DNA of 64,000 nt, taken from Sporichthya brevicatena (GTDB lineage Bacteria; Actinomycetota; Actinomycetes; Sporichthyales; Sporichthyaceae). Within the stretch, counting starts at the first letter, position 1, and every line of letters begins with the position of its first letter. Of the stretch, positions 374 through 47,136 are shown piece by piece. The position numbers and the translations under genes are program-made. The notes under the pieces are model-generated. The model was not told the origin of the DNA. It saw nothing but the letters and a program-made list of their open reading frames with translations, and did not search any database. The DNA lies in NCBI RefSeq assembly GCF_039525035.1, contig NZ_BAAAHE010000021.1, forward strand, positions 56,930 through 120,929, read 5' to 3'.

Positions 374-1546
374 ATGCTCCCCGCTTCGCTGCGCCCTGCC
401 CGCGTGCAGGTCGGCGCCCCGGTACGAGCCGCGGTGGCGGCCTCGGTCGCGGTCACGTGCCTCGGACTGGCCGCGTGCGGCGCGACCGAGCACCCCTCGA
501 CCGCGCTGACCGGCGCGCAGGTCGACCAGTCCGCCGGGGCGTCGGACGGCGGCGCGCGGGCGGGGGACCCGGAGACCACGGGGACGACGAGCGGGACGAG
601 TGAGCGCCGCTGCGTCGGGCCGGCGACAGCGGTCGCGAACGGCACGGTCGCCCCGGTCGCGACGGGCACCACGCCGAATCTGCCCGTCACCTACACCGAC
701 AGCCGCGGCAAACAGCTCACGATCACCAGGGCCGAGCGGGTGCTCGCCCTCGACGTGGCCGGCACGATCGCCTCGACCGTCCACGCACTCGGGCTCGGCG
801 ACCGTCTCGTCGGCCGCGACGTCTCGACCGGCATCCCGGAACTCGCGGACCGACCGGTCGTCACGCACAACGGCCACGAGCTCAACGCCGAGGCGATCCT
901 CGACCTGGCCCCCGACCTCGTCGTGACCGACTACAGCATCGGCCCGCTCGAGGTGCAGATGCAGATCGAGGAGTCGGGCGTCCCGGTCGTCATCCTGTCG
1001 AGCCTGCGCAACCGGTCGACGATCGCGCCGCAGATCCGCGAGGTCGCCGGCGTCTTCGGCCTCCCCGATCTCGGCGATCAGCTCGCGAACCGCGTCGAGG
1101 CCGACATCGCCGCCGCCGAGGCGCGCATCGCGGCGCTGGCGCCGGCCGACCCGGCCCAGCGACTGCGGATGGCGTTCCTCTACCTGCGCGGCACCGCCGG
1201 CGTGTACAGCTGGCTCGGCAAGGGCTCGGGCGCCGACGACCTGATCACGTCGCTGCGCGGCATCGACGTCGCGAGCGAGCTCGGCATCCCCGGCTCCCGG
1301 CCGATCAACGCCGAGGGTCTCGTGAAGTCCGACCCCGACCTGTTCCTGATGATGAGCCACGGTCTGGAGTCGGTCGGTGGAGTGACGGGGCTTCAGAAAG
1401 TCCCGGGCATCGCCGACACCGACGCGGGCCGCGCCGGCTGCGTGGTCGACATGGTCGACTACCAGATCCTGAGCTTCGGCCCGCAGTTCCCCGCCACGCT
1501 CGACGCCCTCGCCACCGCCGTGTACGAGCAGGCGGCGCCGCGATGA
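374..1546 (+). CDS. hmuT: Heme/hemin ABC transporter substrate-binding lipoprotein
   Basis: This 390-residue protein should capture heme outside the membrane and pass it to the permease encoded next. The N-terminus has a basic and hydrophobic signal ending in the lipobox LAAC, with Cys35 as the lipid-modified residue. A low-complexity spacer of about 70 residues rich in Gly, Ala and Asp follows. From about residue 110 the sequence is a class III periplasmic-binding fold of the HmuT/BtuF type (segments such as LAPDLVVTDYSIGPLEV and SYxxRGTAGVYSWLG-like). GAAGGG just before the ATG supports the start. The stop overlaps the permease start by four bases. Heme rather than siderophore or B12 specificity is inferred from the HtaA-like and HugZ-like neighbours. 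Confidence 0.85.
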   Translation: MLPASLRPARVQVGAPVRAAVAASVAVTCLGLAACGATEHPSTALTGAQVDQSAGASDGGARAGDPETTGTTSGTSERRCVGPATAVANGTVAPVATGTTPNLPVTYTDSRGKQLTITRAERVLALDVAGTIASTVHALGLGDRLVGRDVSTGIPELADRPVVTHNGHELNAEAILDLAPDLVVTDYSIGPLEVQMQIEESGVPVVILSSLRNRSTIAPQIREVAGVFGLPDLGDQLANRVEADIAAAEARIAALAPADPAQRLRMAFLYLRGTAGVYSWLGKGSGADDLITSLRGIDVASELGIPGSRPINAEGLVKSDPDLFLMMSHGLESVGGVTGLQKVPGIADTDAGRAGCVVDMVDYQILSFGPQFPATLDALATAVYEQAAPR

Positions 1547-2805
1547 CGACCCAGCACCACGTCGGCGCGCACCCCGTGCCCCCGCCGGTAGCCTGGCCGC
1601 CACGGCCGGCGACGGTCGAGTCGCACGACTGCCCGGACTGCCGGGCGCGCGCCGCGGTCGCTGCGCCGGCTCCCGCGGTCGCGCCCGAGCCGGCCGTCGC
1701 GCCGCGCGCCAAGTCCATCGACCGGGGACGCCCGGCCACCCCGCCGAAGGTCCCCGATCTGCCGCCGACGCACGGCCGTCGCGCCGTCGTCGTGCTCGCC
1801 GGCCTCGCCGTCGCGTTGTTCCTCGCCGGCCTGGTCTCGGCCGGGACCGGTCAGCTGCACGTCGCGCCGGACGAGGTCTTCGGCTCGCTCATGCACAAGA
1901 TGAACATCTCCCTGGGTCCGATGCCCTCGCACCCCAACGGCGACGCGGTGCTGTGGAACATCCGCTTCCCGCGCCTGGTGATGTGCCTGCTCGTGGGGGC
2001 GGCGCTGGGGGCCAGCGGCGCGGTCATGCAGGGCGTGTTCAGCAACCCGCTCGCCGAGCCCGCAGTCATCGGCGTCTCGTCGGGCGCGGCCGTCGGCGCC
2101 TGCGCCGTCATCGTGTTCGGCTGGACCTTCGCGGGGTCCCTGACGATCGCGGCCGCGGCCTTCCTCACCGCGCTGTTCACGACGCTGCTCGTGTACACGC
2201 TCTCGCGCCGCGAGGGCCGCACCGAGGCGGTCACCCTCGTCCTCATGGGCATCGCCGTGCAGGCGGTGTGCAGCGGCCTGATCGCCTACCTGGTCTTCCT
2301 CGGCGACACCGCGTCCCGCGAGCAGATCGTGTTCTGGCAGCTCGGCAGCTTCAACGGCAGCCGCTGGCAGCACGTCTACATCGCTGCTCCCTGCATCGCA
2401 GTCGGCATCCTCGGCGTGCTGTTCCTGTCGAAGCAGCTCGACCTGCTCGCCCTCGGCGAGCGGCCGGCGCGCCACCTCGGCGTCAACGTCGAGCGGCTGC
2501 GCCTCACCTCGATCGTGCTCGTGACGCTCTGCGTCGCGGCGGCGGTCGCCTTCTCCGGAATCATCGCGTTCATCGGCCTCGTCGTCCCGCACCTCGTGCG
2601 GATGGCGGTCGGGCCCGGGCACACCGTGCTGGTACCGGCGTCGGCCCTCGGCGGCGCGCTGGTGCTGACGATCGCCGACCTGGTCGCGCGCACGGCGGTC
2701 GACTACGCCGACCTGCCCATCGGGATGCTGACGGCGCTCGTCGGCGGCCCGTTCTTCTTCTGGCTCCTCATGCGGGCCCGCGCGAAGGCGGGTGGCTGGG
2801 CGTGA
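1543..2805 (+). CDS. hmuU: Heme ABC transporter permease, FecCD family, with a Pro-rich Cys/His N-terminal extension
   Basis: A 420-residue polytopic membrane protein of the FecCD/BtuC family. It carries the family motifs GAALGASGAVMQGVFSNPLA and, near the C-terminus, FIGLVVPHLVRM. It should form the channel of the HmuTUV importer. It overlaps hmuT (ATGA) and hmuV (GTGA), so the three are translationally coupled. The first 80 or so residues precede the first membrane helix and are not part of the normal fold. They are rich in Pro, Ala and His and contain His28-Asp-Cys30-Pro-Asp-Cys33, a possible metal or heme ligand set on the cytoplasmic side. The rest has normal family length, so this is an added N-terminal piece. 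Confidence 0.88.
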   Translation: MTTQHHVGAHPVPPPVAWPPRPATVESHDCPDCRARAAVAAPAPAVAPEPAVAPRAKSIDRGRPATPPKVPDLPPTHGRRAVVVLAGLAVALFLAGLVSAGTGQLHVAPDEVFGSLMHKMNISLGPMPSHPNGDAVLWNIRFPRLVMCLLVGAALGASGAVMQGVFSNPLAEPAVIGVSSGAAVGACAVIVFGWTFAGSLTIAAAAFLTALFTTLLVYTLSRREGRTEAVTLVLMGIAVQAVCSGLIAYLVFLGDTASREQIVFWQLGSFNGSRWQHVYIAAPCIAVGILGVLFLSKQLDLLALGERPARHLGVNVERLRLTSIVLVTLCVAAAVAFSGIIAFIGLVVPHLVRMAVGPGHTVLVPASALGGALVLTIADLVARTAVDYADLPIGMLTALVGGPFFFWLLMRARAKAGGWA

Positions 2806-3671
2806 AGACCACCACCCTCACCCAGCGCGAGCTCCGGCTCCCCGCCCCGAAGGCCCCCGGCGACATCGTCGCCGAGGCGCGCGACGTGTGCGTCACGCTC
2901 GGCGGCGCGGCGATCCTGCGCAACGTCGACCTGCAGATCCGCGCGGGCCGGGTCCTCGCCCTCGTCGGACCCAACGGCGCGGGCAAGTCGACGCTGCTCG
3001 GCGCGATCTCCGGCGACCTCGAGCCGACGTCCGGCACGGTCAGCATCGACGGCGCCTCCCCCTCGGCCTGGACGTGGCGCGAGCTGGCGATCCGCCGTGG
3101 GGTGCTCATGCAGCGCGTCGACGTCACGTTCCCGTTCGCCGTGACCGAGGTCGTGCGGATGGGCCGCTCCCCCTGGGCCGGCACGCCGGCCGAGGACTGG
3201 GACGACGAGGTCGTCGCCGACGCGATGGCCGAGGCCGACGTCACCAAGTTCACCGACCGCGTCTTCAACTCCCTCTCCGGTGGTGAGCGCGCCCGCGCGG
3301 CCATGGCCCGGGTGCTCGCCCAGGAGGCCGGCCTGCTGCTGCTCGACGAGCCGACGGCCGCGATGGACATCAAGCACCAGGAGCTCGTGCTCCACCTCGC
3401 CCGCGGTCGCGCCCGGCGCGGCGACGCGGTCGTGGTCGTCATGCACGACCTCGCGCTCGCGGCCGCCTACGCCGACGAGATCGCGGTCATGTCGCGCGGG
3501 CAGATCGCCGCCGTCGGCCACCCGGTCACCGTGCTCACCCCCGAGCTGCTGACCCGCGTCTACGAACACCCGATCGAGGTCCTGCGCCACCCCCGTACCG
3601 GCGCGGTCGTCGTCCTGCCCCGACGGGACTTCTCGGTCGTCCCCACTGCCCCATCGCAAAGGAGTTACTGA
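2802..3671 (+). CDS. hmuV: Heme ABC transporter ATP-binding protein
   Basis: The 289-residue ATPase has Walker A GPNGAGKST, signature LSGGERARA, Walker B LLLLDEPT and the switch His in VVVMHDLALAAAYADEI. It should power HmuU and matches HmuV/FecE proteins in length and motifs. The GTG start at 2802 overlaps the hmuU stop. A later start would cost this coupling. The stop TGA shares one base with the ATG of the next gene, so the secreted protein that follows is in the same transcription and translation unit. Confidence 0.9.
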   Translation: MKTTTLTQRELRLPAPKAPGDIVAEARDVCVTLGGAAILRNVDLQIRAGRVLALVGPNGAGKSTLLGAISGDLEPTSGTVSIDGASPSAWTWRELAIRRGVLMQRVDVTFPFAVTEVVRMGRSPWAGTPAEDWDDEVVADAMAEADVTKFTDRVFNSLSGGERARAAMARVLAQEAGLLLLDEPTAAMDIKHQELVLHLARGRARRGDAVVVVMHDLALAAAYADEIAVMSRGQIAAVGHPVTVLTPELLTRVYEHPIEVLRHPRTGAVVVLPRRDFSVVPTAPSQRSY

Positions 3672-4630
3672 TGCGCCGTCAGATTGCTGCCGCGCTGCTC
3701 GCCTGCGGTCTGGCCGGTGTGGCGCTCCCCGCCGCCGCCGTCCCGACCGGTCAGGGCACGGGCAACCCCACCCTCTCCGCGTCGCCGTCGACCGGGCTCG
3801 CCGCCTCGGGCAAGACGACGATCCAGGTCCGCGGCATCGACTACCTCGTCCCGCCGTCGGCCGAAGGTGTTCCCGTCGAGGGCGGTATCTACGTCTTCTT
3901 CGGCTGGGTCGACACCGCGAAGAAGTGGGGACCGAGCGGCCGCAACATCAACAACACCGACGGCAACTTCGGGACGACCTACCTCTACCCCGGTGCCGGC
4001 GGCAGTGCGGACAGCCGCGACAACGGCAACGGCACGGTCTTCGTCTCGTTCAGCGCCTCGGGCGAGTCCGGCGACGCCACCGGCTTCCACATGGACCGCA
4101 ACGGCAACTGGTCGGTCCCGATCGAGGTGCCGGGTGCCGTCTTCACCACCGAACTGCCGGGCGGTGCCGGGACCAAGACCACCGACTGCCGGCAGGTCAC
4201 CTGCGGCGTCTTCACCTTCGGCGCGCACGGCAAGGCCAGCGCCACCAACGAGAAGTTCACCCCGCTGAGCTTCGCGGGCGGCTCCACCGGCGGCTCGACC
4301 GGCGGCGTCACCGCGACGCCGAAGCCCAGCAGCACCCCGAACATCACCACCACCGTGGCCCCGACGCCGCCGAGCGCGACGCCGAAGGCCACCACCTCCG
4401 GGTACGACGCGAACGGCGCCCCGACGCGGCTTCCCCAAACCGGAATCGCCGAGGACTCCCCCGTCACGGTCGCCCCCGCCCCGCTCGACGGCAGCACCGT
4501 TGCCGTCGGCGTGAGCGCCGCGAGCGACTCGGGCGGCGGGGGCCTCGCCATGTTCGGCGTGGCCGCCCTGGTCGCGCTGGTCGTCGCACTCACGGCATCC
4601 CTGTTCTGGCGCTACGGCGTCCGGGACTAG
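3671..4630 (+). CDS. Secreted heme-locus surface protein with LPQTG and a C-terminal membrane anchor
   Basis: A 319-residue protein with an N-terminal signal peptide (cleavage likely near AAA-VP, residues 22-24). A compact domain (about residues 30-200) reads like a secreted Ig-like fold found beside actinobacterial heme uptake genes (segments IQVRGIDYLVPP, GGIYVFFGWV, FTFGAHGKA) with one Cys pair. A Thr/Pro/Gly-rich stalk follows, then LPQTG at 254-258, a hydrophobic helix at about 293-312 and the basic tail WRYGVRD. The LPQTG is about 35 residues before the helix, further than in normal sortase substrates. It may bind heme or hold HtaA partners at the wall; that is inference. Its start is fused to the hmuV stop. 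Confidence 0.72.
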   Translation: MRRQIAAALLACGLAGVALPAAAVPTGQGTGNPTLSASPSTGLAASGKTTIQVRGIDYLVPPSAEGVPVEGGIYVFFGWVDTAKKWGPSGRNINNTDGNFGTTYLYPGAGGSADSRDNGNGTVFVSFSASGESGDATGFHMDRNGNWSVPIEVPGAVFTTELPGGAGTKTTDCRQVTCGVFTFGAHGKASATNEKFTPLSFAGGSTGGSTGGVTATPKPSSTPNITTTVAPTPPSATPKATTSGYDANGAPTRLPQTGIAEDSPVTVAPAPLDGSTVAVGVSAASDSGGGGLAMFGVAALVALVVALTASLFWRYGVRD

Positions 4631-4695
4631 CCCGTCGGTCGACGGCAGTACCACTTGTAACACGCAGCACCACAACCAAAGGAGGAGCTGACCAC

Positions 4696-5979
4696 ATGAC
4701 GGTCACTCAGCTGAAAGAACGCGGGCGACCACGCCTGCGCGCGCTGGCGGCCGCCGCCGCGGGGGCCCTGGCCCTCACGGGCATCGGCGTCGTCAACGCG
4801 TCGACCGCGAACGCCGAGGTGCTCAACGCCACCGGTGGTTCCCTGCAGTGGGGTATCAAGACCAGCCTCCTGAGCTACCACTTCGCCCTGCACTCCGGCA
4901 CCACGCAGGGCGTCGTCGCGGGCGACGGAGCGACCGCGAGCACGGAGACGCGCGGGTCGGGTGCGGAGACGTACCCGCTGTACTGGAACTTCCCGTTCGT
5001 CAGCGGCAGCTACGACTCGACCACCCAGAAGTACACCGCGCAGTACGGCGGGTCCGTGACGCTGACCGAGAGCAACCCGGCGGCGAGCACCGGCCCGGGG
5101 AGCGCCAGCCCCTTCAAGAACTTCAAGGTGGCCAACCCGAAGGTCGTCATCGACCTGGCGAACAACACCAAGTCGCTGGTCCTCGACGTGGACGGCGGTG
5201 ACGACGGTGACCCGGCGACCCCGGTCGACCCGCTGCTGACCGGCGTCGACTTCGGCACGTTCCCGAACCTCACCACCGCGGTCGCCCCGACCGGTGGCGC
5301 CATCTCGTACACGAACGTGGCGGCGGCCCTGACCGCGGCCGGCTCCGACGCCTTCGGCGGGTTCTACGGTGCGGGCACCGAGATCGACCCGGTGTCGTTC
5401 TCGCTCACCGGCCTCGCCGGCGGTGGCGGCGAAACCCCCGAGCCGACCCCGACCCCGACCCCGGAGGCCCCGGGTGACGGCGAGCAGCGGATCACGTTCT
5501 CGGTGCCGGAGGCGGCCGAGGAGTGCGCCGGTGAGATCGCGTGGGCGATCAGCTCGGGCGAGGACGGCCTGGTCACCATGTCCGAGGCGGCCCTCAACGG
5601 CGACCACCTGGTCTCGACGGGCGCGATCGACCCGATCACGATCTCGGACAGCCGGACCGGCGACGGCCAGGAGTGCTACCCCTCCTTCGGAGTCTCGGGC
5701 CAGGTGACCGACTTCGCCGGTCCCAACGGGGCCTCGATCCCTGGTGCGAACCTGGGGTGGGCGCCGAACAGCTCCGCCGGCTTCATCGTCGCGGGCAGTT
5801 CGGTGGCCTCCGGCTACAACGGCGCGGGCCCCGGCCTGTCCCAGCCGTCGACCCTGGCGACCGTCGAGGGCGGCCAGCCCGGCACCGGTGACGCGGGTGC
5901 CGACCTGGAGCTCAAGGCACCGGTCGAGGCCGAGCCCGGCGAGTACGAGGCGACTCTGACCCTCACCGGCCTCACCTGA
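4696..5979 (+). CDS. Secreted HtaA-like heme-binding protein with C-terminal WxL-like domain (first copy)
   Basis: A 427-residue exported protein. A strong AAAGGAGGAGCT ribosome site precedes the ATG, and the signal peptide ends near NASTANA-EV (about residue 44). Residues 45-250 look like an HtaA domain, the heme-binding module of Corynebacterium HtaA (GGSLQWGIKTSLLSY, SGSYDSTTQKYTAQYGGSV, VANPKVVIDL). A TPTPTPE linker leads to a C-terminal domain of about 165 residues (GVSGQVTDF, GANLGWAPN, EYEATLTLTGLT) that is repeated in the next gene and resembles WxL-like wall-binding domains. The likely job is to catch heme at the wall for HmuT. The heme ligands cannot be assigned by eye. Confidence 0.75.
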   Translation: MTVTQLKERGRPRLRALAAAAAGALALTGIGVVNASTANAEVLNATGGSLQWGIKTSLLSYHFALHSGTTQGVVAGDGATASTETRGSGAETYPLYWNFPFVSGSYDSTTQKYTAQYGGSVTLTESNPAASTGPGSASPFKNFKVANPKVVIDLANNTKSLVLDVDGGDDGDPATPVDPLLTGVDFGTFPNLTTAVAPTGGAISYTNVAAALTAAGSDAFGGFYGAGTEIDPVSFSLTGLAGGGGETPEPTPTPTPEAPGDGEQRITFSVPEAAEECAGEIAWAISSGEDGLVTMSEAALNGDHLVSTGAIDPITISDSRTGDGQECYPSFGVSGQVTDFAGPNGASIPGANLGWAPNSSAGFIVAGSSVASGYNGAGPGLSQPSTLATVEGGQPGTGDAGADLELKAPVEAEPGEYEATLTLTGLT

Positions 5980-6032
5980 TCGACCGATCCGACCGACTGG
6001 TCTGACGATCAGTCAGTTGCACCTCACATCGT

Positions 6033-6071
6033 GGGGCGGTGGGTCCGAATGGAGCGCGGACCCACTGCCCC
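6033..6071 (+). repeat. Intergenic hairpin, copy 1 of a pair with a shared loop
   Basis: GGGGCGGTGGGTCCG at 6033-6047 pairs with CGGACCCACTGCCCC at 6057-6071 with one mismatch. The loop reads AATGGAGCG. It sits in the 150-base gap between the two HtaA-WxL genes. There is no T run, so it is not a classical terminator. A second hairpin with nearly the same apex lies at 7598-7630. It may slow decay or attenuate between genes of this operon. Confidence 0.55.
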
Positions 6072-6129
6072 CCGATCCCCCACCGACCGACCGGGCCGGC
6101 CTTTTGCGGCCCAGAAGGCAGCGTCAGAC

Positions 6130-7542
6130 ATGAAAACCCATCAGAAGCGTGAGGCCAGACACGGCCTGCGCCGGGTCACCGCGGTGACCGGCGCCGCCGC
6201 CCTGGCCGCCGCCACGCTCGTCGTCGGGGCCACCCAGGCCACGGCGGCGGAGCAGACGATCACCGGCGCCTCGTTCACCTGGGGCCTGACCGACTACATC
6301 CAGTACACCGGCACCGGTGCGCCCGGCACCTGCCACTACCTGTCCGCCGGTTCGCTCGACGGGACCAGCGGCGCCAACACCCAGAGCTCTTACAAGGCCG
6401 TCGACGGCAACGTCACGATCAAGCTGGGTGACGGCGACCCGACCTGGGCCACCAAGTGCAGCGGCTTCGGGAACTTCACCGGCGGCCAGACGGCCACCGG
6501 CAGCCCGGCCAACCAGCGGGTCGTCTGGAGCGGCGGCACCGGGACCCGGGACTCGTCCACGGGCGAGGCCACCATCACCTTCCCCGGCACGCTGTCGGTG
6601 AAGTTCAGCGGCGCGCCGTTCCGCATCGTCGACCCGGTCCTGACCATCGACAGCGCGGGCACCGGCACCCTGAAGGCAACCATCAAGGCCGGGGCCGACC
6701 CGCTGGCCACGGTCGACACGCCGGGCGTCACCGTCGCCGAGCTGACCGGGCTCAACACCGGGAGCACGGCGGAGTTCACCACGACGCCGACCTTCGCCGG
6801 CCGCACGATCACCGTGGGCGCCAACACGGTCCCGACCGAGGCGGTCCAGACCGCCTACGACGCACTCGGTGCCGACCGGTGGGGCGCCTGGCCGGAGTCG
6901 TTCGTCAACGCGGCGAACACCGGCAGCGTCAACGCGGGCGGCCGGTTCTACAACTCCGGCACGACGACGACCGGTGACGGCTTCAAGTACCCGCTGCCGA
7001 TCACCGTCAACTACGGCACCGTGACCGGCGGCGAGACGCCGGGGGACGGCCAGACCATCACGGTCACGGTGCCGGAGGCTCCGGAGGAGTGCGCGGGTGA
7101 GGTCGTCTGGGCGCTGAAGAACGGCACCGACGGTGACGTCGCGCTGACCCCGGGCACCGCGGGTGCGGACCACCTGCCGTTCACGGGCGCGCTCGACCCG
7201 ATCACCTTCACCGACGGTCGGACCGGCGACGGGGCGGCCTGCTACCCGTCCTTCGGGGTCTCCGGCCAGGTGAGCGACTTCACCGGGCCCGAGGGCGCCA
7301 CGATCTCCGGCGCGAACCTCGGCTGGACGCCGAACGTCACCGGCGCGGGCCTGACGGCCGGCGCTCCGGTCGCGTCCGGAATCGGCGGCGGTTCCGGTCT
7401 CTCGCAGCCCGCGACGCTCGCGACCACGACGGCCGGCAGCACCGGTTCCGGTGACGCCGGGGCGGACCTGGAGCTCAAGGCTCCGCTCGATGCCGACGCC
7501 GGTGATTACGAGGGCACCTTGACCCTCACCGCTCTGACCTGA
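6130..7542 (+). CDS. Secreted HtaA-like heme-binding protein with C-terminal WxL-like domain (second copy)
   Basis: A 470-residue paralogue of the preceding product. The signal peptide ends near TQATAA-EQ (about residue 44). The N-terminal region (45-300) is a longer HtaA-like module: SFTWGLTDYIQ at its start, then a GEATITFPGTLSVKF strand pair and DPVLTIDSAGTGTL, with extra Cys residues not present in the first copy. The C-terminal domain (about 307-470) is clearly homologous to that of the first copy (PEECAGEVVWAL, GVSGQVSDF, GANLGWTPN, DYEGTLTLTALT). The ATG at 6130 starts at a good signal peptide; weak GGCAGCG upstream is the only ribosome-site candidate. The two copies differ most in the heme-facing half, so they may do different steps in a heme relay. 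Confidence 0.72.
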   Translation: MKTHQKREARHGLRRVTAVTGAAALAAATLVVGATQATAAEQTITGASFTWGLTDYIQYTGTGAPGTCHYLSAGSLDGTSGANTQSSYKAVDGNVTIKLGDGDPTWATKCSGFGNFTGGQTATGSPANQRVVWSGGTGTRDSSTGEATITFPGTLSVKFSGAPFRIVDPVLTIDSAGTGTLKATIKAGADPLATVDTPGVTVAELTGLNTGSTAEFTTTPTFAGRTITVGANTVPTEAVQTAYDALGADRWGAWPESFVNAANTGSVNAGGRFYNSGTTTTGDGFKYPLPITVNYGTVTGGETPGDGQTITVTVPEAPEECAGEVVWALKNGTDGDVALTPGTAGADHLPFTGALDPITFTDGRTGDGAACYPSFGVSGQVSDFTGPEGATISGANLGWTPNVTGAGLTAGAPVASGIGGGSGLSQPATLATTTAGSTGSGDAGADLELKAPLDADAGDYEGTLTLTALT

Positions 7543-7597
7543 CGTCAGGCACCGCCAGTCGCTGCCGCCAATTCCGACAGGGCGGCAGATGCAAAGA

Positions 7598-7630
7598 GGG
7601 CGGGGTCCGGATGGAGCCCGGACCCCGCCC
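7598..7630 (+). repeat. Intergenic hairpin, copy 2 of a pair with a shared loop
   Basis: GGGCGGGGTCCGG at 7598-7610 is perfectly complementary to CCGGACCCCGCCC at 7618-7630, around the loop ATGGAGC. It lies in the 200-base gap between the second HtaA-WxL gene and the DUF916-type gene. The apex GGTCCG-R-ATGGAGC-S-CGGACC is common to this hairpin and the one at 6033-6071. There is no T run. Confidence 0.6.
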
Positions 7631-7742
7631 CAGAGCACCACCGAGACCCCTTACGAGTTCCAGCAGCCCCACCAATGTAACCGGCCACCACGGCCAGATC
7701 CGGCCGTCTCGCAGTTGCGGCCGGTCGAGAGGAGCAACGTCG

Positions 7743-8897
7743 ATGAGTCGCCAGGCCACTGTCAGTACCGCGGGCACAGCCGCTCGCCCCACCGGCCGAC
7801 GCCGCCCATCCGGGCTTCTCGCCGCCGCGGTCGTCGCCACGCTCGGCGGCGCGCTGGCCCTCGGGCCGAGCGCCGTCGCCGCCGACAACCCCACGCCCGG
7901 CACGATCGGCGGGGCCCCGTCGGCCGAGTCCCAGGAGGAGAACACCCTCACCTGGTCGGTCCGCCCGACCCCGCGGGAGGAGGGCGACAACCGCCCGAAC
8001 TACCTGCTGGACGTGAAGGCGGGCGACGTGGTGAAGGACGCCATCCGCGTCCGCAACTTCGGCAAGACCGAACTCCCGCTCACGATCTACGCCAGCGACG
8101 CCATCACCACGTCGACCGGCGCCATCGACCTGCTCCCGGCCGGCGAGACGCCGCGCGACGTCGGGGCCTGGATCGAGCTCGAGCGCTCCGAGCTCCGCAT
8201 CGCCCCCGGCGAGCACGTGGACGTGCCGTTCACCATGACCGTGCCGAGCAACGCCGAGTCCGGGGACCACACCGGCGGCATCGTCACCTCCTACATCGCA
8301 CCCGGTCAGGACGACGACGGGCAGCCGGTCAAGCTCGACCGCCGGCTCGGCAGCCGCGTCCAGGTCCGCGTCGACGGCGAGCTCCGGCCCGGCCTGAGCA
8401 TCACCGACTTCCGGACCTCCTACGACGGCACCGCGAACCCGGCCGGCAAGGGCGACATGACCGTCACGTACACGGTCACCAACACCGGCAACGTGCGCAT
8501 GTCCGCGCTGCAGACGTTCAAGGTCGCCGGCCCGTTCGGCCTGTCCGGCAAGACCGCGGACCTCAACCCGATGCCCGAGCTGCTCCCGGGCAACTCGCTG
8601 ACGATGTCCAGCACGCTCTCGGGCGTCTGGCCGATCCTGCGCAACAGCGCCGACCTCGAGGTCCGGCCCGTGCCGACCCGCCCCGGTGACAACTTCCCGG
8701 CGCTGAAGTCGGCCAAGGCCTCGTCGGGTCAGTGGACCGTTCCGTGGACGCTCGTGTTCCTCCTCCTGCTCGGCGCCGCCGGCACCAGCGGCACGATCCT
8801 CGCCCGGCGTGAGCTCAAGCGCCGCGAGGCCGCCCGCGTCGACGAGGCCGTCCAGGCCACCCTGGCCGCGCACGGTGTGACGGAGGGTCAGTCGTGA
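7743..8897 (+). CDS. Secreted DUF916-type WxL partner protein (WxL-interacting, membrane-anchored)
   Basis: A 384-residue exported protein with a signal peptide (to about residue 45, ending SAVAADN), a long extracellular part and one C-terminal helix (WTVPWTLVFLLLLGAAGTSG) followed by a basic cytoplasmic tail. Residues 65-210 match the DUF916 / WxL peptidoglycan-binding-partner pattern: VKAGDVVKDAIRVRNFGKTELPL, then IAPGEHVDVPFTMTVP and GDHTGGIVTSY. A second Ig-like part follows. In Firmicutes such proteins are encoded beside WxL proteins and hold them at the surface, which fits the two preceding genes. GAGAGGAGC precedes the ATG. The stop overlaps the next start (GTGA). Confidence 0.75.
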   Translation: MSRQATVSTAGTAARPTGRRRPSGLLAAAVVATLGGALALGPSAVAADNPTPGTIGGAPSAESQEENTLTWSVRPTPREEGDNRPNYLLDVKAGDVVKDAIRVRNFGKTELPLTIYASDAITTSTGAIDLLPAGETPRDVGAWIELERSELRIAPGEHVDVPFTMTVPSNAESGDHTGGIVTSYIAPGQDDDGQPVKLDRRLGSRVQVRVDGELRPGLSITDFRTSYDGTANPAGKGDMTVTYTVTNTGNVRMSALQTFKVAGPFGLSGKTADLNPMPELLPGNSLTMSSTLSGVWPILRNSADLEVRPVPTRPGDNFPALKSAKASSGQWTVPWTLVFLLLLGAAGTSGTILARRELKRREAARVDEAVQATLAAHGVTEGQS

Positions 8898-10699
8898 CCC
8901 CGAGATCGAGGGTCGCGCTCGCCATCGCGGTCGCGACCGGGACCCTGGGCAGCACCCTGATCACCGCGGGCGCGTTCGCGTACTCCACGACGCCCGCTCT
9001 CCCGGCCGCGGCCCAGTGCCCGGCGGGGACGGTGCTCTTCCGCACCGCTCCCCCGGCTCCGGCGCCCACCCCCAGCCCGAGCCCCACCCCGGTGCAGGTG
9101 CCGCAGTACCAGGCGCCGCAGTACCAGCCCACGCCGCAGTACCCGCAGTACCAACCGCAGCCGCAGTACCAGGTCCCCCAGTACCAGGCCCCGCAGTACC
9201 AGGGTCCGCAGTACCAGGCGCCGCAGCCGCAGTACTACTCGGCCCCGCAGCCGCAGGCCCCGCAGTCGTACGTCCCGCCGGCGAGCACGACGGGGGCGAG
9301 CGCGGCGTACATCGCGCAGTCGACGCTCTCGAACGTCGAGGGGTCGACGATGGCGGAGACGCCGGTGGACCCGGCGACCGCGGCGGCGACGACCGACGTC
9401 ACCGACCCGTACGCGAGTGCCTCGATCGACCCGGACGCGTTCATCTGCGTCGTCCCGGGATACGGATCCGCACCCGCACCGACGGCGCCCAGCACCCCGA
9501 CGACACCGGTGGACCCGGCCATGCCGGCGGACCCGGCGGCCGCGCCCACCGCGGAACCGACCCCGGCCGCGGAACCGACGCCCACCCCGACGCCGGCCGT
9601 GGTCGACCCGGGCATCACCGGGCCGGCGCCCGGCATGATCCCGACCAGCCCGGCCCAGCCCGAGACCCCGGTGGTCCCGGCCGACTCCGACCAGGAGCCG
9701 CCGGCCGCGGAGGAGCCCGCCGAGGACAAGCCCTCGACGGGCCAGGGTCCGAACGACGGCGGTGAGCGTCCGAGCACCCCGCAGAAGGGTGACAACGACT
9801 CCGGCAAGGGCAAGCGGATCACGCGCGACGAGGTGATCGGACGGGCCGTCAGCTGGGTGCTGCAGCAGGTGCCCTACAGCCAGACCTCGTGGTGGACCGA
9901 CTCCAACGGCACCTACCGCCAGGACTGCTCGGGTTACGTCTCCATGGCGTGGAACCTGAACCAGCGCATCAACTACTGGACCGGCAACCTCGCCTCGGTC
10001 TCGCACCGGATCGCGACGAAGTCGCTCAAGCCCGGCGACATCCTGCTGCTGCCGCGCTCGCACGTCGTGATCTTCGCGGGCTGGGCGAACTCGGCGAAGA
10101 CGAAGTTCCACCTCTACGAGGAGTACTCGCGCGGCAAGCCGGCGCGTTACCTCACCGGCGCCGACCTCAGCTACTACCTGAACCGGGGCTACGGCGCCTA
10201 CCGCTACGACAAGATCGCCGACGTCCAGCGCGGCAAGCCCGGTCCGCAGTCGACGGTCTACAACAACGCGATGCACACGACGGGCACCGTCGTCGACCCG
10301 GTTCTCGACGCGGCGCTCGACCCCGCGCTCGACCCGACGGCCGACCTGAACGACGGCATGGTCGACATCGCGGCCCAGGTGCCCGGCCAGGAGTGGACGC
10401 CCGCGGCGGCCGCCGAGGCCGAGTCCGAGGCGGAGCGCACCGCTCCCCCGGCGCACGACGAACAGATCACGCCGGACCCGGTGCCGAACCTGCCGGTGAC
10501 GACGCTGATCGACGTGCAGCTCGCGACCGACATGCGGGCGCTGGCGCCGGACGAGCTGCCGTCGGTGAAGAGCGCCTCCGGGATGGTGCTGCTCGCGGCG
10601 GGCGTGGCGCTGTTCTTCCTCGGCTTCCCGCTCGCGGCGGCCGCGAGAGCCGGCGTCTTCCTGCCCGGCGTGCCGATGCGGCGGGAGGACCTGGCATGA
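8894..10699 (+). CDS. Secreted NlpC/P60-type cell-wall peptidase with Gln/Tyr/Pro repeats and C-terminal membrane helix
   Basis: A 601-residue protein with an N-terminal signal, about 25 copies of short PQY/QYQ/PQ repeats (residues 60-135), a long Pro/Ala/Thr stalk, and a catalytic domain at about 310-440. The likely nucleophile is Cys345 (QDCSGYVSMAW) and the catalytic His is His390 (RSHVVIFAGW), the arrangement of NlpC/P60 and CHAP peptidases that cut peptidoglycan stem peptides. A second low-complexity stretch and one membrane helix (GMVLLAAGVALFFLGFPLAAA) end the protein. It overlaps both neighbours by 4 bases, so it belongs to the heme/WxL operon. It may open the wall for assembly of the surface proteins; that is inference. 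Confidence 0.8.
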   Translation: MTPRSRVALAIAVATGTLGSTLITAGAFAYSTTPALPAAAQCPAGTVLFRTAPPAPAPTPSPSPTPVQVPQYQAPQYQPTPQYPQYQPQPQYQVPQYQAPQYQGPQYQAPQPQYYSAPQPQAPQSYVPPASTTGASAAYIAQSTLSNVEGSTMAETPVDPATAAATTDVTDPYASASIDPDAFICVVPGYGSAPAPTAPSTPTTPVDPAMPADPAAAPTAEPTPAAEPTPTPTPAVVDPGITGPAPGMIPTSPAQPETPVVPADSDQEPPAAEEPAEDKPSTGQGPNDGGERPSTPQKGDNDSGKGKRITRDEVIGRAVSWVLQQVPYSQTSWWTDSNGTYRQDCSGYVSMAWNLNQRINYWTGNLASVSHRIATKSLKPGDILLLPRSHVVIFAGWANSAKTKFHLYEEYSRGKPARYLTGADLSYYLNRGYGAYRYDKIADVQRGKPGPQSTVYNNAMHTTGTVVDPVLDAALDPALDPTADLNDGMVDIAAQVPGQEWTPAAAAEAESEAERTAPPAHDEQITPDPVPNLPVTTLIDVQLATDMRALAPDELPSVKSASGMVLLAAGVALFFLGFPLAAAARAGVFLPGVPMRREDLA

Positions 10700-12075
10700 G
10701 TGAGCAACCGCTGCGCACCCGGCGGTCGCGGCTCGGCCGGGTGACGGCCGGCATCACGCTGGCGATCGCGGTCGTCACCGCCGGCGTCGTCGGGTTCTCG
10801 GCCAACCGCGCCGACGCCGACCCCAACGGTGAACTGAAGTACCCCGCCGGGGCAACCGCGACGCGGTTCACCGGGCAGGCGTTCGACACGTGCGCCGCGC
10901 CGTCGGTGTCGACGATGCGGGCCTGGCTCGACTCGCCGTACCGCGCGATCGGCATCTACATCAGCGGGAAGCTGCGCGCGTGCCGGCAACCCAACCTGAC
11001 GGCCTCGTGGGTCCGCGAGGTCTCGGCGATGGGGTGGAAGCTCATCCCCATCGACGTCGGTCGGCAGGCGCCGTGCACGAAGTTCTCACTGCGCATCAGT
11101 TCGAACAGCAGCGAGGCCCGGCAGCAGGGCATCGCCGCCGGCCGCTCCGCCGTCAGTGCGGCGCGCGCGCTCGGGATCCTCCCCGGCAGCGCGCTGTACT
11201 CGGACATCGAGAACTACGACAGTCGCGACAAGATCTGCTCCGGCGACGTCCACGCCTACCTCAACGGGTGGACGCGCGCGCTGCACTCGGCCGGGTACCT
11301 GTCCGGCGTCTACGGGAACCTGCAGCCGCTGGTCGACGACCTCGTCGACGCCCAGCGGACGGCGAACTCCGGCAAGGGACGCGAGGGCACGATCCGACCG
11401 GACATGCTCTGGAACGCGGAATGGGACCGCACGCCCAAGCTGACCGGCTGGAGCGGCGTCGAGTCCCACCTGTGGGCGGCGCAGCAGCGGATAAAGCAGT
11501 ACCGCGGCGACCACCGCGCCACCTACGGCGGCGTTCCGCTGACGATCGACAGCAACGTCGTCGACGCCGCCGTGGCCACGGTGGCCTACTCGGTGGCGAC
11601 CCCCACAGGCGTCGACCTGGTTAGCAAGGTGGCGCCGTCGGAGGCCGCAGCGGGTCGCAGTCCCGGCGCGCGCCTCGACCTCGTCTGCGTCACGCACTCC
11701 GCGATCTCCAGCCTGGGGGCGTGGTACCAGACCGCCGACGCGACCTGGATCCCCAAGGCGGCGCTGGACGGCAATTCGACGGTGGCGCGCTTCGCGGACC
11801 GGATCCCGACCTGCGCGACGCCGTACCAGGTGGGGCCGGGCCTGAAGCCGCTGCGCAGCGCGCCGACGGAGACCGCCGACTCGCCGGGCACCCTGGCCGG
11901 CGGGACGGTCGCGTGGATCGTCTGCGAGCAGCCCGGCTCCGTCGGCGGCGCGCCCGGGTTCTGGCAGCGGCTGGAGACCGGGCAGTGGGTCAGCGGTGTC
12001 GACCTGCTCCGGTCCTCGGACCGGGCCGACTCCCCGGCGATCCCGGCGTGCCCCTTTTCGGCAGGCCTCACGTGA
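10696..12075 (+). CDS. Secreted DUF1906 (glycoside-hydrolase-like, Rv2525c family) protein
   Basis: A 459-residue exported protein with a signal peptide ending at about NRADA-DP (residue 36). Residues 50-300 are a DUF1906 TIM-barrel-like domain: GQAFDTCAAPSVSTMRAWL, YRAIGIYISG, KLIPIDVGRQ, LYSDIENYD and a C-terminal TIDSNVVD. Acidic residues at SDIE and DSN lie where GH25-like enzymes have theirs. The remaining 150 residues form an SH3-like pair with Cys residues that may bind the wall. DUF1906 proteins are thought to act on peptidoglycan, though activity is unproven for most. It is translationally coupled to genes on both sides (ATGA and GTGA overlaps). Confidence 0.8.
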   Translation: MSEQPLRTRRSRLGRVTAGITLAIAVVTAGVVGFSANRADADPNGELKYPAGATATRFTGQAFDTCAAPSVSTMRAWLDSPYRAIGIYISGKLRACRQPNLTASWVREVSAMGWKLIPIDVGRQAPCTKFSLRISSNSSEARQQGIAAGRSAVSAARALGILPGSALYSDIENYDSRDKICSGDVHAYLNGWTRALHSAGYLSGVYGNLQPLVDDLVDAQRTANSGKGREGTIRPDMLWNAEWDRTPKLTGWSGVESHLWAAQQRIKQYRGDHRATYGGVPLTIDSNVVDAAVATVAYSVATPTGVDLVSKVAPSEAAAGRSPGARLDLVCVTHSAISSLGAWYQTADATWIPKAALDGNSTVARFADRIPTCATPYQVGPGLKPLRSAPTETADSPGTLAGGTVAWIVCEQPGSVGGAPGFWQRLETGQWVSGVDLLRSSDRADSPAIPACPFSAGLT

Positions 12076-12797
12076 GCAGCCGGTACCGGCAGCAGCCCGG
12101 CCGGACGGCCGCGCTGCTTCTGCTCGCGGTGACGTTCTGCGTCACCGCGCTGTTCGCCGGCGGCGCGTTCGACTCCGAGGTCGATCTCTCCGAGGGCAGC
12201 ACGGCGATCCTCAGCCCCGAGGAGGCGGCCGCCCAGGCCGCCGCCGACGACGACGGGGGTAACACCGCGCTGCTCGCGTTGCTCGGGTTGCTCCTGCTCG
12301 TCGGCGGCGTTCTCCTGCTCCAGTTCGCGCTGCCGAGCCGACGCGAACGCCGGCGCCTCGCCCGCGAGACCCGCACGGGAGCTCCGGAGCCACCTCCGGT
12401 GGTGGCCGGCCCGGAACCCGTCGGCGTCCGCCGCCGGATGCCGTACGCCGACTCCGACCCGACGCTCGTCCTCACCCCGATCGCACCTCCACCGGCGCCG
12501 GCACCGCCGCTGTGCCGGTGCGGCGCTCCCATCCACGAGCCCCTGGTGCTGATCGACCCGGCGTGTCCCCCGGCGCCCCCACCCGCCCCCACCCCGACTC
12601 CGGAGCCGGTGCCGGCTCCGGTGGCAGTTCCCGTTCCCGTCTCAGTTCCCGTTGCAGTTCCCGTCTCAGAGAACCCGGTCCCCGTTCCGACAACCCCACC
12701 AACACCCGCACCCGCCCTGCGGCGAGTCGGGGCGCGGATCGGGCACACGGCATCCGTCCGGATGAGTGCCGTTGCCCCAGTTTCGACCCCTCGTTAG
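12072..12797 (+). CDS. Membrane protein with long Pro/Val-rich cytoplasmic tail, function unknown
   Basis: A 241-residue protein read from the GTG at 12072 that overlaps the preceding stop. It has an N-terminal hydrophobic segment (about residues 13-33), a short acidic outside loop, a second helix (about 65-85, LLALLGLLLLVGGVLLLQFA), then a basic patch RRERRRLARETR and 140 residues rich in Pro, Ala and Val. The tail contains CRCGAPIHEP (a possible metal site) and an imperfect VAVPVPVSVPVAVPVS repeat. I recognise no family. Coupling to the DUF1906 gene suggests a role in the same surface machinery. Confidence 0.62.
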   Translation: MSSRYRQQPGRTAALLLLAVTFCVTALFAGGAFDSEVDLSEGSTAILSPEEAAAQAAADDDGGNTALLALLGLLLLVGGVLLLQFALPSRRERRRLARETRTGAPEPPPVVAGPEPVGVRRRMPYADSDPTLVLTPIAPPPAPAPPLCRCGAPIHEPLVLIDPACPPAPPPAPTPTPEPVPAPVAVPVPVSVPVAVPVSENPVPVPTTPPTPAPALRRVGARIGHTASVRMSAVAPVSTPR

Positions 12798-12854
12798 CGT
12801 CACTGCCCAGTGCACGAATCGGGCCGCACCCGCGAGCCCAGGAAGGAACGTTCG

Positions 12855-13694
12855 ATGGCAGAGCGATTCGGCGGCCACCAGGTCCCCAAGGACGCCAAGG
12901 ACCAGACCGCAGCGACGCTGCGCGCCACCACCGGGATCCTCGGCATGCCGAGCGACGCGGAGCGCTCGCGGACGCTGATGATGATCGGCAGCGGTGGCTC
13001 CCTGGCCACGATGAGCACCGAGTGCCCCGGCTTCCCGTTCGGTTCGCTGGTCACCTACTCGGTCGACGAGCGCGGCAACCCGATCATGTGTCTGTCGAGC
13101 CTGGCCGAGCACAGCCACAACCTGGCCGCGGACCCGCGCGCCTCGCTGATGGTCACCGCGCCCGAGGACGGCGTGAACGACCGTCTCGCGCTCTCGCGGG
13201 TCACGCTCGTCGGCGAGATGAAGATCCTCTCCGGTGAGGACAAGGAGGCGATGATCGAGCTGTTCCTGGCCGGTCACCCCAACGCGTTCTACGTCCGCTT
13301 CGACGACTTCGCCACCTACCGGCTCGAGGTCTCCGCGATCCGCTACGTCGGCGGTTTCGGGCGCATGAGCTGGGTCACCGCCGAGGAGTACGCCACGGCG
13401 GAGCCCGACCCGCTGCTCGGCGGCTCCGCGAAGCGGATCATCGAGCACATGAACGACGACCACGGCGACGCGCTGATTGCGTACTGCCAGGTGTTCGCCC
13501 GGTTCGACGGCATCGAGTCGGCGCGCATGGTCGGCGTCGACCGTTACGGCATGGACGTGTTGGCGACGATCGAGGGCGGCGAGCAGCGCGCCGCTCGCAT
13601 CTCCTTCACCGCGCCGGTCACCACGACCGACGAGGTCCGTCAGCAGACGATCGAACTGCTCAAGGAAGCGCGCAGCCAGCTGTCCGCCTCCTGA
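12855..13694 (+). CDS. HugZ-like heme-utilisation protein (split-barrel FMN-binding fold plus DUF2470)
   Basis: A 279-residue cytosolic protein. Residues 20-180 form a pyridoxamine-phosphate-oxidase-like split barrel (ATMSTECPGFPFGSLVTYSVDERGNP, SSLAEHSHNLAADPRASLM, NAFYVRFDDFATYRLEV). Residues 190-275 are a DUF2470 domain (AKRIIEHMNDDHGDAL). This pairing is that of HugZ/HutZ-type proteins, some of which open the heme ring to release iron. Its place after a heme importer fits a heme-degrading or heme-binding role; enzyme activity cannot be read from sequence. AGGAAGGA before the ATG at 12855 is a good ribosome site. It is the last gene before a strong terminator. Confidence 0.8.
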   Translation: MAERFGGHQVPKDAKDQTAATLRATTGILGMPSDAERSRTLMMIGSGGSLATMSTECPGFPFGSLVTYSVDERGNPIMCLSSLAEHSHNLAADPRASLMVTAPEDGVNDRLALSRVTLVGEMKILSGEDKEAMIELFLAGHPNAFYVRFDDFATYRLEVSAIRYVGGFGRMSWVTAEEYATAEPDPLLGGSAKRIIEHMNDDHGDALIAYCQVFARFDGIESARMVGVDRYGMDVLATIEGGEQRAARISFTAPVTTTDEVRQQTIELLKEARSQLSAS

Positions 13695-15250: not shown

Positions 15251-17284
15251 ATGTCCGCACGCTCACTGGCGCTCGGCCTCACGAGCGCGATGTGCGTCTC
15301 GCTGGCCATGACACTCGCCGCACCGACTGCGCAGGCCGCGACTCCGGTGACACTCCACGTCAGCGCGACCGGCAACGACGCCGGGAACTGTACGACCGCT
15401 CCGGGGTGCCGCACGATCCAGCGCGCGGTCAACGTCGCCGCGTCGTTCCTGCCGACGCCGATCGACGCGACGATCCTCGTCGGGCCGGGCACGTTCGCCG
15501 AGAGCAGCGCCGACACCAGCGCGGGGCTGACGATCACGTCGTCCGCGTTCAGCGCGCTGAAGATCGCCGGCGCCGGAGCCAACCTCACGACGATCAGCCC
15601 GGCGCAGGCGCGGCGCGTGATCCGCATCGCCGGGGCGTACCCCGTGACGATCTCCGGGGTCACGATCACCGGCGGCAAGGCCCCGGCGGCCACCGCGCAG
15701 GCCCCCGTCAACGACGGTGGCGGCATCCTGCGGACGGGCGGCGGCAACCTCACCCTCGACGGCGTCGTCCTGACCAGGAACGGGGCCGGCCCGGGACTCG
15801 CCGGGACGGCCGGCGCCGACCGCGGCACCGGTTCGCCCGACGGCGCCGACGGCGGTACGTCCACCGCCGGCGGGCCGGGCGGCAGCGGCGGCGGCGTCGC
15901 GATGGCCGGCGGGGTGCTCACGGTCGTCAACAGCACGGTCGAGCGCAACGCCGCGGGAGCGGGCGGCGCCGGTGGCAAGGGCGGCAACGGTGGCGACGGG
16001 CGCAGCGGCGGCCTGCTCTCCTCCGCGGGCGCCGGCGGCGACGGGGCCGCGGGCAGCGCAGGCGGGATCGGCGGGTCCGGCGGGGGGATCGCCTTCGCCG
16101 GCAGCGTTCTGACGATCGCGAACTCGACGATCGTGTCGAACGCGTCCGGGCGGGGCGGCGCCGGCGGCGCGGGCGGTTCGGGCGGCGCAGGTCACGGATC
16201 GAAGGCCGGCGGCAACGCGGCGCGCGGTGGATCCGGCGGCGCGGGCGGCCAGGGCGGCGGCATCGCCCTGCTCTCCGGCGTCACTGGCGCGACGCTGACG
16301 CACGTCACCCTCGCGGCCAACGCGACCGACGCCGGTGGCGCGGCCGGGGCCAACGGCACTGTCGGCAAGGGCAAGACCAACGGCTCCCTGGTCGGCGCGG
16401 CCCCGACCAACGGTGGTCAGTTCCTCTCCGGTGGTCTCGCCGCGGCGGCGGGCACCGTCACCCTCGAGGCGTCCCTGCTCGCCAACGCACAGGCGAACTG
16501 CGTCCCCGCGGCGACGACCGCGGTCGCATCGGTCGCGAGCGACGCATCCTGCTTCACCGACGGCTCCGGCCCGGCCGAGGCGCCGAACAAGGTCAGCACG
16601 TCCGCGAGCGCACTCTCGGCGCTCGCCGCCAACGGCGCGCGGACTCCGACGGCCGCCGTCGCGAACACCAACGCCGCCTTCGGCGCGGTCCCCGTGTCGT
16701 CCGGCCTCTGCGGCGGCGACACGAACGGCCAGGACCAACGCGGCGAGGCCCGGCCCGGGATCTCCGGCCCGAATGCCTGCACCGCCGGTGCGTACGAGCC
16801 GCAGGTGCCGCCGGTCGCACCGACGATCACCGGCAAGATCGCCAGCGCCGCCGGCAAGACCAAGTACGGCTGGTACCGCGACACCGTCACGGTGACCTTC
16901 ACGTGCACGCCGGGCAGTTCGCCGCTGACCGCCCCGTGCCCGAAGCCGATGGTGCTCTCGAGCTCGGGGGCCAACCGCGGCGGCACCGTCACGATCACCA
17001 ACCAGCAGGGCCTGAGCGCCTCGATCAAGATCGCGCTGAACATCGACAAGAACAAGCCGACGATCGCGATCAAGGGCGTCCAGAAGGGCAAGACCTACAC
17101 CGCGCCCCGCCAGGTCCGCTGCGTCGCCGGTGACAGCCTCTCCGGCCCGTACATGTGCCAGGTCACCGCGACCGCGAAGCTGGTCAGGAAGAACCGCGCC
17201 GTCCGCGTCGACTACACCGCCACCGCCCTCGACCGCGCCGGCAACGTCCGGACGAAGAAGGGCTACTACGTCTACACCCGATGA
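15251..17284 (+). CDS. Secreted Gly-rich parallel beta-helix-like protein
   Basis: A 677-residue exported protein; GAAAGGGGGG lies before the ATG and the signal peptide ends near AQAA-TP (about residue 30). LHVSATGNDAGNCTTAPGCRTIQRAVNVA starts a pectate-lyase-like right-handed beta helix of the kind seen in polymorphic surface proteins. Residues 190-370 are a Gly/Ala/Ser-rich insert (GGxGGxGG runs) interrupted by VLTVVNSTVERN and VLTIANSTIVSN helix coils. From about 510 an Ig-like or Cys-containing domain (ITGKIASAAGKTKYGW, FTCTPGSS) ends in a basic strand-rich tail. No catalytic site is visible. It may be a surface adhesin or matrix protein. Confidence 0.72.
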   Translation: MSARSLALGLTSAMCVSLAMTLAAPTAQAATPVTLHVSATGNDAGNCTTAPGCRTIQRAVNVAASFLPTPIDATILVGPGTFAESSADTSAGLTITSSAFSALKIAGAGANLTTISPAQARRVIRIAGAYPVTISGVTITGGKAPAATAQAPVNDGGGILRTGGGNLTLDGVVLTRNGAGPGLAGTAGADRGTGSPDGADGGTSTAGGPGGSGGGVAMAGGVLTVVNSTVERNAAGAGGAGGKGGNGGDGRSGGLLSSAGAGGDGAAGSAGGIGGSGGGIAFAGSVLTIANSTIVSNASGRGGAGGAGGSGGAGHGSKAGGNAARGGSGGAGGQGGGIALLSGVTGATLTHVTLAANATDAGGAAGANGTVGKGKTNGSLVGAAPTNGGQFLSGGLAAAAGTVTLEASLLANAQANCVPAATTAVASVASDASCFTDGSGPAEAPNKVSTSASALSALAANGARTPTAAVANTNAAFGAVPVSSGLCGGDTNGQDQRGEARPGISGPNACTAGAYEPQVPPVAPTITGKIASAAGKTKYGWYRDTVTVTFTCTPGSSPLTAPCPKPMVLSSSGANRGGTVTITNQQGLSASIKIALNIDKNKPTIAIKGVQKGKTYTAPRQVRCVAGDSLSGPYMCQVTATAKLVRKNRAVRVDYTATALDRAGNVRTKKGYYVYTR

Positions 17285-17547: not shown

Positions 17548-17549
<2 letters not shown>
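17377..17549. repeat. Cluster of five GGGTG-N-CACCC palindromic repeats
   Basis: Five copies of a palindromic core (A)AAGGGTG-N-CACCCTT(T) occur in about 170 bases. Copies 1 and 2 are in opposite orientation and together make a perfect 38-base palindrome at 17380-17417 (arms of 19). Copy 3 at 17437-17464 is imperfect. Copy 4 at 17475-17503 is a perfect 14-base inverted repeat around a T, bordered by GTCAAG/CTTGAC. Copy 5 at 17533-17549 is perfect and overlaps the stop codon of the carboxylase gene. They separate two convergent genes and can act as terminators, but the number of copies exceeds that need; a REP-like family is plausible. Confidence 0.85.
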
Positions 17550-23088
<5,539 letters not shown>

Positions 23089-24016: not shown

Positions 24017-24051
24017 CGGGTCGGTGGGCCAGCTCGGCCCCGTGCGGTTGC

Positions 24052-24435: not shown

Positions 24436-24469
24436 CGGGTCCTCCTGGTGCTCGTGCGGGCTCAATCAG

Positions 24470-24489
24470 AGTAACTCGACTTAGTTACT
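24470..24489. promoter_or_regulatory. Perfect inverted repeat, likely operator between divergent genes
   Basis: AGTAACT (24470-24476) and AGTTACT (24483-24489) are perfect 7-base arms around CGACTT. This AT-rich dyad stands out in a GC-rich background. It lies 35 bases upstream of the rhodanese start and about 75 bases before the PPOX gene. The form suits a small dimeric regulator such as an ArsR or MarR protein. No such regulator gene is next to it. Confidence 0.6.
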
Positions 24490-24562
24490 TTGCAATGGCG
24501 AGTTCGGGGCGTGTCGTAGGTTTCGACCCGTGGAGCGAGCTCGAGTACGGAAGGCCTCTCAC

Positions 24563-28610: not shown

Positions 28611-28674
28611 CGTCCGCCTTTCCGAGCCTTTGCCCGGGCCGCTGCGCACCGGGTCCACTGCGTAGTCTGCCTCC

Positions 28675-29034: not shown

Positions 29035-29055
29035 CGTTGCGGGTCGATCCGGGGG

Positions 29056-32236: not shown

Positions 32237-32284
32237 CCGGCGATCGTACGAGCGCACCGCAGCGGAGGACGGACGGCCGGTGGC

Positions 32285-32440: not shown

Positions 32441-32459
32441 CGAGGGAGGAAGTACGACC

Positions 32460-47109: not shown

Positions 47110-47136
47110 ACGAGATCGGCCAGGAAAGAGTTCCCC

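Follow-up and report, generated by a model that had tools for sequence, protein, structure and literature searches.

The window investigated comprised 64,000 nt of Sporichthya brevicatena DNA (assembly GCF_039525035.1, contig NZ_BAAAHE010000021.1, positions 56,930–120,929 of the forward strand). Between window positions 374 and 8897 its + strand carries a putative heme-acquisition locus, in which the transporter genes hmuTUV are followed by four genes designated g4 to g7; g5 and g6 encode predicted heme receptors that end in WxL-like domains, and g7 encodes a WxL-interacting protein (WxLIP). The features of the locus are as follows (TM, transmembrane).

267–285, + strand: IdeR/DtxR-like iron box TCAGGTAAGGCTTTCCTTA, two mismatches, about 90 bp upstream of hmuT
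374–1546, + strand: HmuT, heme-binding lipoprotein (phmmer E 2e-70 to Corynebacterium glutamicum HmuT 5az3)
1543–2805, + strand: HmuU, FecCD-type permease (PF01032 E 1.9e-93)
2802–3671, + strand: HmuV, heme ABC ATPase (NF010068, 305 bits, cut-off 261)
3671–4630, + strand: g4, secreted protein with a conserved Cys pair and a C-terminal TM helix (alignment A7)
4696–5979, + strand: g5, signal peptide, HtaA CR domain (residues 47–236), linker and WxL-like domain (residues 259–427, approximately) (PF04213 E 2.4e-22)
6130–7542, + strand: g6, signal peptide, HbpA-like domain of the CR superfamily and WxL-like domain (Foldseek, HbpA 9bcj, E 2e-7)
7743–8897, + strand: g7, WxLIP with DUF916, a DUF3324-like second domain and a C-terminal TM helix (PF06030 E 1.7e-8)

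All genes were found where the first-pass annotation of this DNA had placed them, but the array starts at position 374, with hmuT, and not at 3671, and g4 and the downstream gene g10 had been left undescribed. The array had also been called mostly translationally coupled; six junctions do overlap, by 4 bp (hmuT/hmuU, hmuU/hmuV, g7/g8, g8/g9 and g9/g10) or 1 bp (hmuV/g4), and four are separated by gaps of 65 bp (g4–g5), 150 bp (g5–g6), 200 bp (g6–g7) and 57 bp (g10–g11). The full array is conserved in a sister species (locus L058).

HmuT retained the axial His and the Tyr-x-Arg of its C. glutamicum homologue. The g4 protein gave no Pfam match, only a weak match to NF040680 (enediyne chromoprotein), and no solved relative of it was found; its gene is conserved between those for HmuV and the CR proteins and was present in 55 of the 71 related loci described below. 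Because some 60 residues separate its LPQTG motif from the C-terminus, g4 was not called a sortase substrate.

The iron box upstream of hmuT lies within the palindrome AGGTAAGG-CTTT-CCTTACCT and is also present in the sister species. Only 0.11 matches were expected by chance in 64 kb, and the sole other match in the window was at 47091. Across the loci compared, 26 boxes were found in 186 kb of heme-linked loci and four in 526 kb of other WxL loci, an approximately 18-fold difference in density, which suggests that the heme locus would be repressed by iron. The second IdeR-like box of the window (TAAGGTGAGGCTCACCTTA) directly precedes an iron-uptake pair (47091–49496) encoding an imelysin-type EfeO and the Dyp-peroxidase EfeB.

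The N-terminal halves of g5 and g6 bear out the proposal that two secreted proteins here fuse an HtaA-type module to the same C-terminal domain. In g5 the PF04213 match (80.7 bits, cut-off 24) is well above threshold, and S57-x3-Y61 (the axial Tyr and the Ser four residues before it) and the FY motif (the propionate Tyr) align with C. glutamicum HtaA; both are heme contacts in solved CR domains. Binding of heme by g5 through the axial Tyr is therefore predicted from the sequence. The PF04213 match of g6 was weak (E 0.015, 16.3 bits, below the cut-off). The AlphaFold model of its N-terminal domain (pLDDT 79) retrieved HbpA of C. diphtheriae at ranks 1 and 2 (Foldseek E 2e-7 and 4e-6), followed by HtaA CR domains at about 1e-5, and the sequence profile A4 gave the same order, with HbpA at rank 1 (E 8e-5). 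The domain belongs to a family distinct from that of the g5 HtaA domain, and in several genomes its relatives share very long reading frames with HtaA domains. On the strength of the model, g6 is predicted to be a receptor, for hemoproteins or for heme, of the type of the hemoglobin receptor HbpA.

The C-terminal domains of g5 and g6 share 63 % identity, and in a tree of 50 such domains they grouped with the copies of the sister species. WxL-like relatives were found in 74 of 385 genomes sampled from the class, representing 28 of 136 genera. Among 37 relatives examined, 22 matched PF13731 (WxL) at E ≤ 10 (best 6.4e-6) and 33 kept the proximal W-x-[LVI]. Four fusions from heme loci scored 20.3–24.6 bits against PF13731, below its cut-off of 25, and three single chains combined PF04213 matches of 5e-42 to 6e-50 with PF13731 scores of 20–21 bits. 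Alignment by hhalign to WxL proteins of Bacillota (Lactococcus, lactobacilli, E. mundtii and Vagococcus) gave a probability of 93.6 % (E 2.1e-7) around the D-x-R...GW region. The domain is, moreover, C-terminal in secreted proteins and encoded beside a WxLIP gene, two features by which WxL proteins are recognized. Its model (from g5, pLDDT 93) gave weak Foldseek matches to chaperone-usher pilin-like and GH123 proteins; none was below E 0.001, which leaves the fold without support from a solved WxL structure. Under the strict definition, which requires two motifs, these domains are not canonical WxL domains; judged by profile, position and partner, they are best read as divergent ones.

The assignment of g7 as a DUF916-type partner was confirmed. 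Its PF06030 (WxLIP_PGBD/DUF916) score was 35 bits (cut-off 27.3), 26 of its 27 relatives matched the same family, and the profile A3 retrieved the solved EfmWxLIP1 (9i25) with E 2.4e-7. Alignment by hhalign to Bacillota DUF916–DUF3324 WxLIPs (96.7 %, 276 columns) covered the second domain as far as the TM helix, but the Pfam matches of g7 and its relatives included no DUF3324. A C-terminal TM helix with a basic tail was seen in alignment A3, and 41 of 44 WxLIPs had a hydrophobic C-terminal segment.

WxL and WxLIP genes were closely linked. Throughout the class, 79 of 129 WxL matches had a PF06030 match on the same strand within 1.5 kb downstream (about 2e-4 expected per match), and 79 of the 94 PF06030 matches considered followed a WxL match. 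With g7 as the query, a homologue was found directly after 37 of 45 WxL genes; in the heme loci recovered with the HbpA-like domain, the WxLIP gene came immediately after the WxL gene in 43 of 44 cases. Pairwise distances between WxL domains were correlated with those between the adjoining WxLIPs (Mantel r 0.84), a value reached in none of 2000 sets of within-genome partner swaps. Linkage and covariation together provide strong sequence-based evidence that the two are cognate pairs, short of proof of contact. In Bacillota, a strand of the WxLIP is predicted to insert into the WxL domain and complete its sandwich (PMC10599100). The pilin-like Foldseek matches, although not significant alone, would weakly fit such an insertion, because chaperone-usher pilins are donor-strand proteins.

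A search for related loci with the HbpA-like alignment A8 yielded 71 named loci; alignment A1 recovered no relatives. HmuT was encoded in 57 of the loci, a WxL domain in 45, and WxL together with WxLIP in 43. Since these loci were picked by the HbpA-like domain, the frequency of HmuT applies to that domain rather than to WxL at large. A CR-WxL fusion, WxLIP and HmuT occurred together in 39 of the 71 loci, from at least 14 genera, which included Microbacterium, Cellulomonas, Pseudoclavibacter, Herbiconiux, Labedella, Luteimicrobium, Brachybacterium, Oerskovia, Cellulosimicrobium, Gulosibacter, Occultella, Pseudactinotalea, Subtercola and Streptomyces. The order HmuTUV-g4-CR-CR/WxL-WxLIP, which is that of the window, was frequent, and in other loci (many of them from Microbacterium) the WxL pair was divergent from hmuT. 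The observation made on this single stretch is confirmed and generalizes beyond it; the interpretation placed on it is partly supported.

Part of that interpretation was that a WxL/DUF916 pair replaces the C-terminal membrane helix of corynebacterial HtaA proteins, and the survey agrees. By a simple hydropathy test, none of the 45 CR-WxL proteins had a hydrophobic segment in the last 70 residues, as opposed to 44 of 78 CR proteins lacking WxL; g5 itself has no C-terminal TM helix. The contrast supports an arrangement in which the outer receptor would be held by WxL and WxLIP and, in many loci, the inner one would be tethered by its own helix.

The idea that this anchor belongs to heme uptake was not supported by the wider survey. 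Besides the window and locus L104, only eight of 38 WxL regions adjoined HmuTUV genes, and the WxL tree required six changes of the heme label, at least two of them forced by well-supported branches. With six changes, a single heme-specific WxL lineage was rejected as the simplest reading. WxL-WxLIP apparently constitutes a general actinobacterial display module that was recruited to heme more than once.

Two loci outside heme uptake illustrate other uses of the domain. In L044 (4898–6805) a WxL-like domain forms the C-terminus of a glycoside hydrolase family 18 protein encoded beside a WxLIP gene, so the module also displays enzymes. In L046 (8809–10386), from a genome of the same genus without an HtaA match, the domain ends a predicted β-propeller protein, and no WxLIP homologue was detected nearby.

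Four further genes follow g7 in the array.

8894–10699, + strand: g8, secreted NlpC/P60-like protein with Pro-rich linkers and a C-terminal TM helix (PF00877 E 0.0036, below cut-off)
10696–12075, + strand: g9, secreted Rv2525c/DUF1906 glycoside-hydrolase-like protein (PF08924 E 8.4e-46)
12072–12797, + strand: g10, small membrane protein with a Pro-rich tail (no Pfam match above cut-off)
12855–13694, + strand: g11, cytosolic CREG/PNPOx barrel with C-terminal DUF2470 (PF13883 E 3e-22, PF10615 E 1.2e-21)

The DUF1906 assignment of g9 in the first-pass annotation was borne out, and the NlpC/P60 assignment of g8 is weaker; the protein contains a DCSG motif and, further downstream, a His. Among the surveyed heme and non-heme WxL loci, homologues of g8–g10 were confined to the same genus (L058), and the suggestion of dedicated wall remodelling is unsupported for that reason. 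Intracellular use of heme by a HugZ-like protein had been proposed as well. The HugZ identity was rejected, as g11 scored 65.9 bits against a cut-off of 240 (TIGR04109); its nearest match is the heme-binding protein MSMEG_6519 (5bnc, E 5.7e-46), with plant HOZ (6m09) at E 6.8e-36. The genome gave no match to the heme oxygenase family PF01126, so g11 is regarded from its sequence as a candidate heme-binding or heme-handling protein for imported heme, and as nothing further.

Taken together, the locus is probably an iron-repressed system for the acquisition of heme, and perhaps also of hemoproteins, whose CR receptors are displayed by WxL and WxLIP. In the mechanism proposed, the HtaA-like g5 and the HbpA-like g6 would be secreted receptors without a membrane anchor of their own, each ending in a divergent WxL domain, and the single membrane-anchored g7 would hold both. 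g7 would probably complete the WxL β-sandwich with a donor strand and contact peptidoglycan. Heme would pass from g5 and g6 to the TM-tethered g4, to HmuT or to both, and then through HmuUV into the cell; in the cytosol g11 may bind or degrade it. A broader proposal, for which we put the chances at about even, is that a general actinobacterial module, consisting of a WxL domain without the distal Trp that is donor-strand-completed by a membrane-anchored WxLIP, was recruited more than once to hold heme or hemoprotein receptors in the wall, the outer receptors having neither a membrane nor a sortase anchor of their own.

Several observations weigh against this reading. The two WxL-like domains of the window had no PF13731 match, nor was there one elsewhere on their own genome, and both lack the proximal W. 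The distal Trp of Yxxx(L/I/V)TWxLxxxP was replaced by another hydrophobic residue in all 37 relatives, the hhalign match to Bacillota WxL proteins spans 57 columns only, no WxL structure in the PDB was matched, and the WxL sequence profile retrieved only noise from that database. Furthermore, g5 lacks the helper His (or Tyr) of the β6–β7 loop, where it has TESN; the fused HtaA domains of L068 and L070 retain GH at this site. In ChtA, removal of the helper residue lowered affinity only about two-fold (PMC12494546).

Among the alternatives, the one that retains most weight, though we consider it unlikely, is that the C-terminal domain is an interaction platform and not a wall anchor, CR-WxL and WxLIP forming a receptor complex at the membrane with no role for peptidoglycan. 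The TM helix and basic tail of WxLIPs could hold such a complex alone, and the Trp motifs of the WxL domains are eroded; against this, a passage in PMC5817068, citing Brinster 2007, has Bacillota WxL domains binding the wall, and the homology extends to both partners. Somewhat less probable is a single functional unit spanning 374–13694, with wall remodelling by the NlpC/P60, DUF1906 and HugZ-like genes. The 4-bp overlaps from g7 to g10 and the conservation of the entire array in L058 favour it, but homologues of g8–g10 were absent from every other WxL locus surveyed.

It is improbable that g5 and g6 are shed hemophores acting mainly in the medium, with WxL providing transient wall contact. 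Part of the HtaA and ChtA of C. diphtheriae is secreted (PMC12494546), and WxL proteins are also found in the medium (PMC5817068), yet in almost all loci the WxL gene is paired with a WxLIP gene that has diverged to a matching extent. Finally, the transporter might serve cobalamin or another chelate, the neighbouring cobalamin genes being its true context. Such genes occupy much of the window and HmuU also scores to BtuC models; nevertheless, this was rejected and is very hard to credit, given the match of HmuT to the C. glutamicum protein with both axial ligands kept, the HmuV score above a heme-specific cut-off, the HtaA domain, the iron box and the recurrence of HmuTUV with CR proteins across genera.

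The proposed display of CR receptors by WxL and WxLIP joins two systems that have been described separately. The hmuTUV-htaA/cht/hbpA systems of Corynebacterium share with the window HmuTUV, CR-domain receptors, the HbpA-type fold and a DtxR-type iron box, but there the CR proteins have a nonpolar segment at the C-terminus, presumably a TM helix (PMC12494546), in place of WxL and WxLIP. HtaA domains are likewise exposed on the surface of Streptomyces and Corynebacterium by proteins with C-terminal tails, which are LPXTG- or Tat tail-anchored (PMC10924467) and not WxL-anchored. The WxL clusters of Bacillota (CscA/B/C; WxL and WxLIP) similarly encode secreted proteins with a C-terminal WxL domain beside a DUF916–DUF3324–TM partner, and two WxL proteins per WxLIP, as in the window, is the commonest published cluster (PMC10599100). 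They differ from the window, where the order is WxL-WxL-WxLIP, the distal Trp is absent, the cargo is heme receptors and not adhesins, and the hosts are actinobacterial. The Isd system of Staphylococcus is a functional parallel, in that wall-embedded receptors feed a membrane ABC transporter (summarized in PMC5341603), but it uses NEAT domains and sortase anchoring, and no common receptor or anchor family was found.

The literature assigns WxL proteins almost entirely, or mainly, to the Lactobacillales and Bacillales (PMC10599100, PMC5817068), and some actinobacterial plasmids already carry a DUF916 annotation. No paper treating WxL and HtaA together was found in the open-licence PMC literature, so a description elsewhere is possible. 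A plasmid record labelled Klebsiella pneumoniae (CP069367.1, 102097–102480) contains a WxLIP 54 % identical to that of E. faecium, perhaps through enterococcal contamination.

The layout, a putative heme-acquisition system, is shared with at least 14 other actinobacterial genera. WxL scores just below the Pfam cut-off, where checked, suggest that annotation may miss it. The many natural WxL-WxLIP pairs, most of them from non-pathogens, could be used to study the working of the pair and the location of the WxLIP helix; if the proposed module exists, its occurrence in environmental bacteria would argue for a helix in the bacterium's own membrane, as against the published suggestion of insertion into host membranes.

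Elsewhere in the window, a large secreted Gly/Ala-rich protein without a Pfam match is encoded near the heme locus (15251–17284), followed by a reading frame of 1846 aa that looks like a fused acyl-CoA carboxylase (17548–23088). Apparent cobalamin biosynthesis genes lie downstream of the heme locus at 23258–36047 and 54083–63711, and a secreted CAP-domain protein (PF00188) is encoded at 51651–52583.

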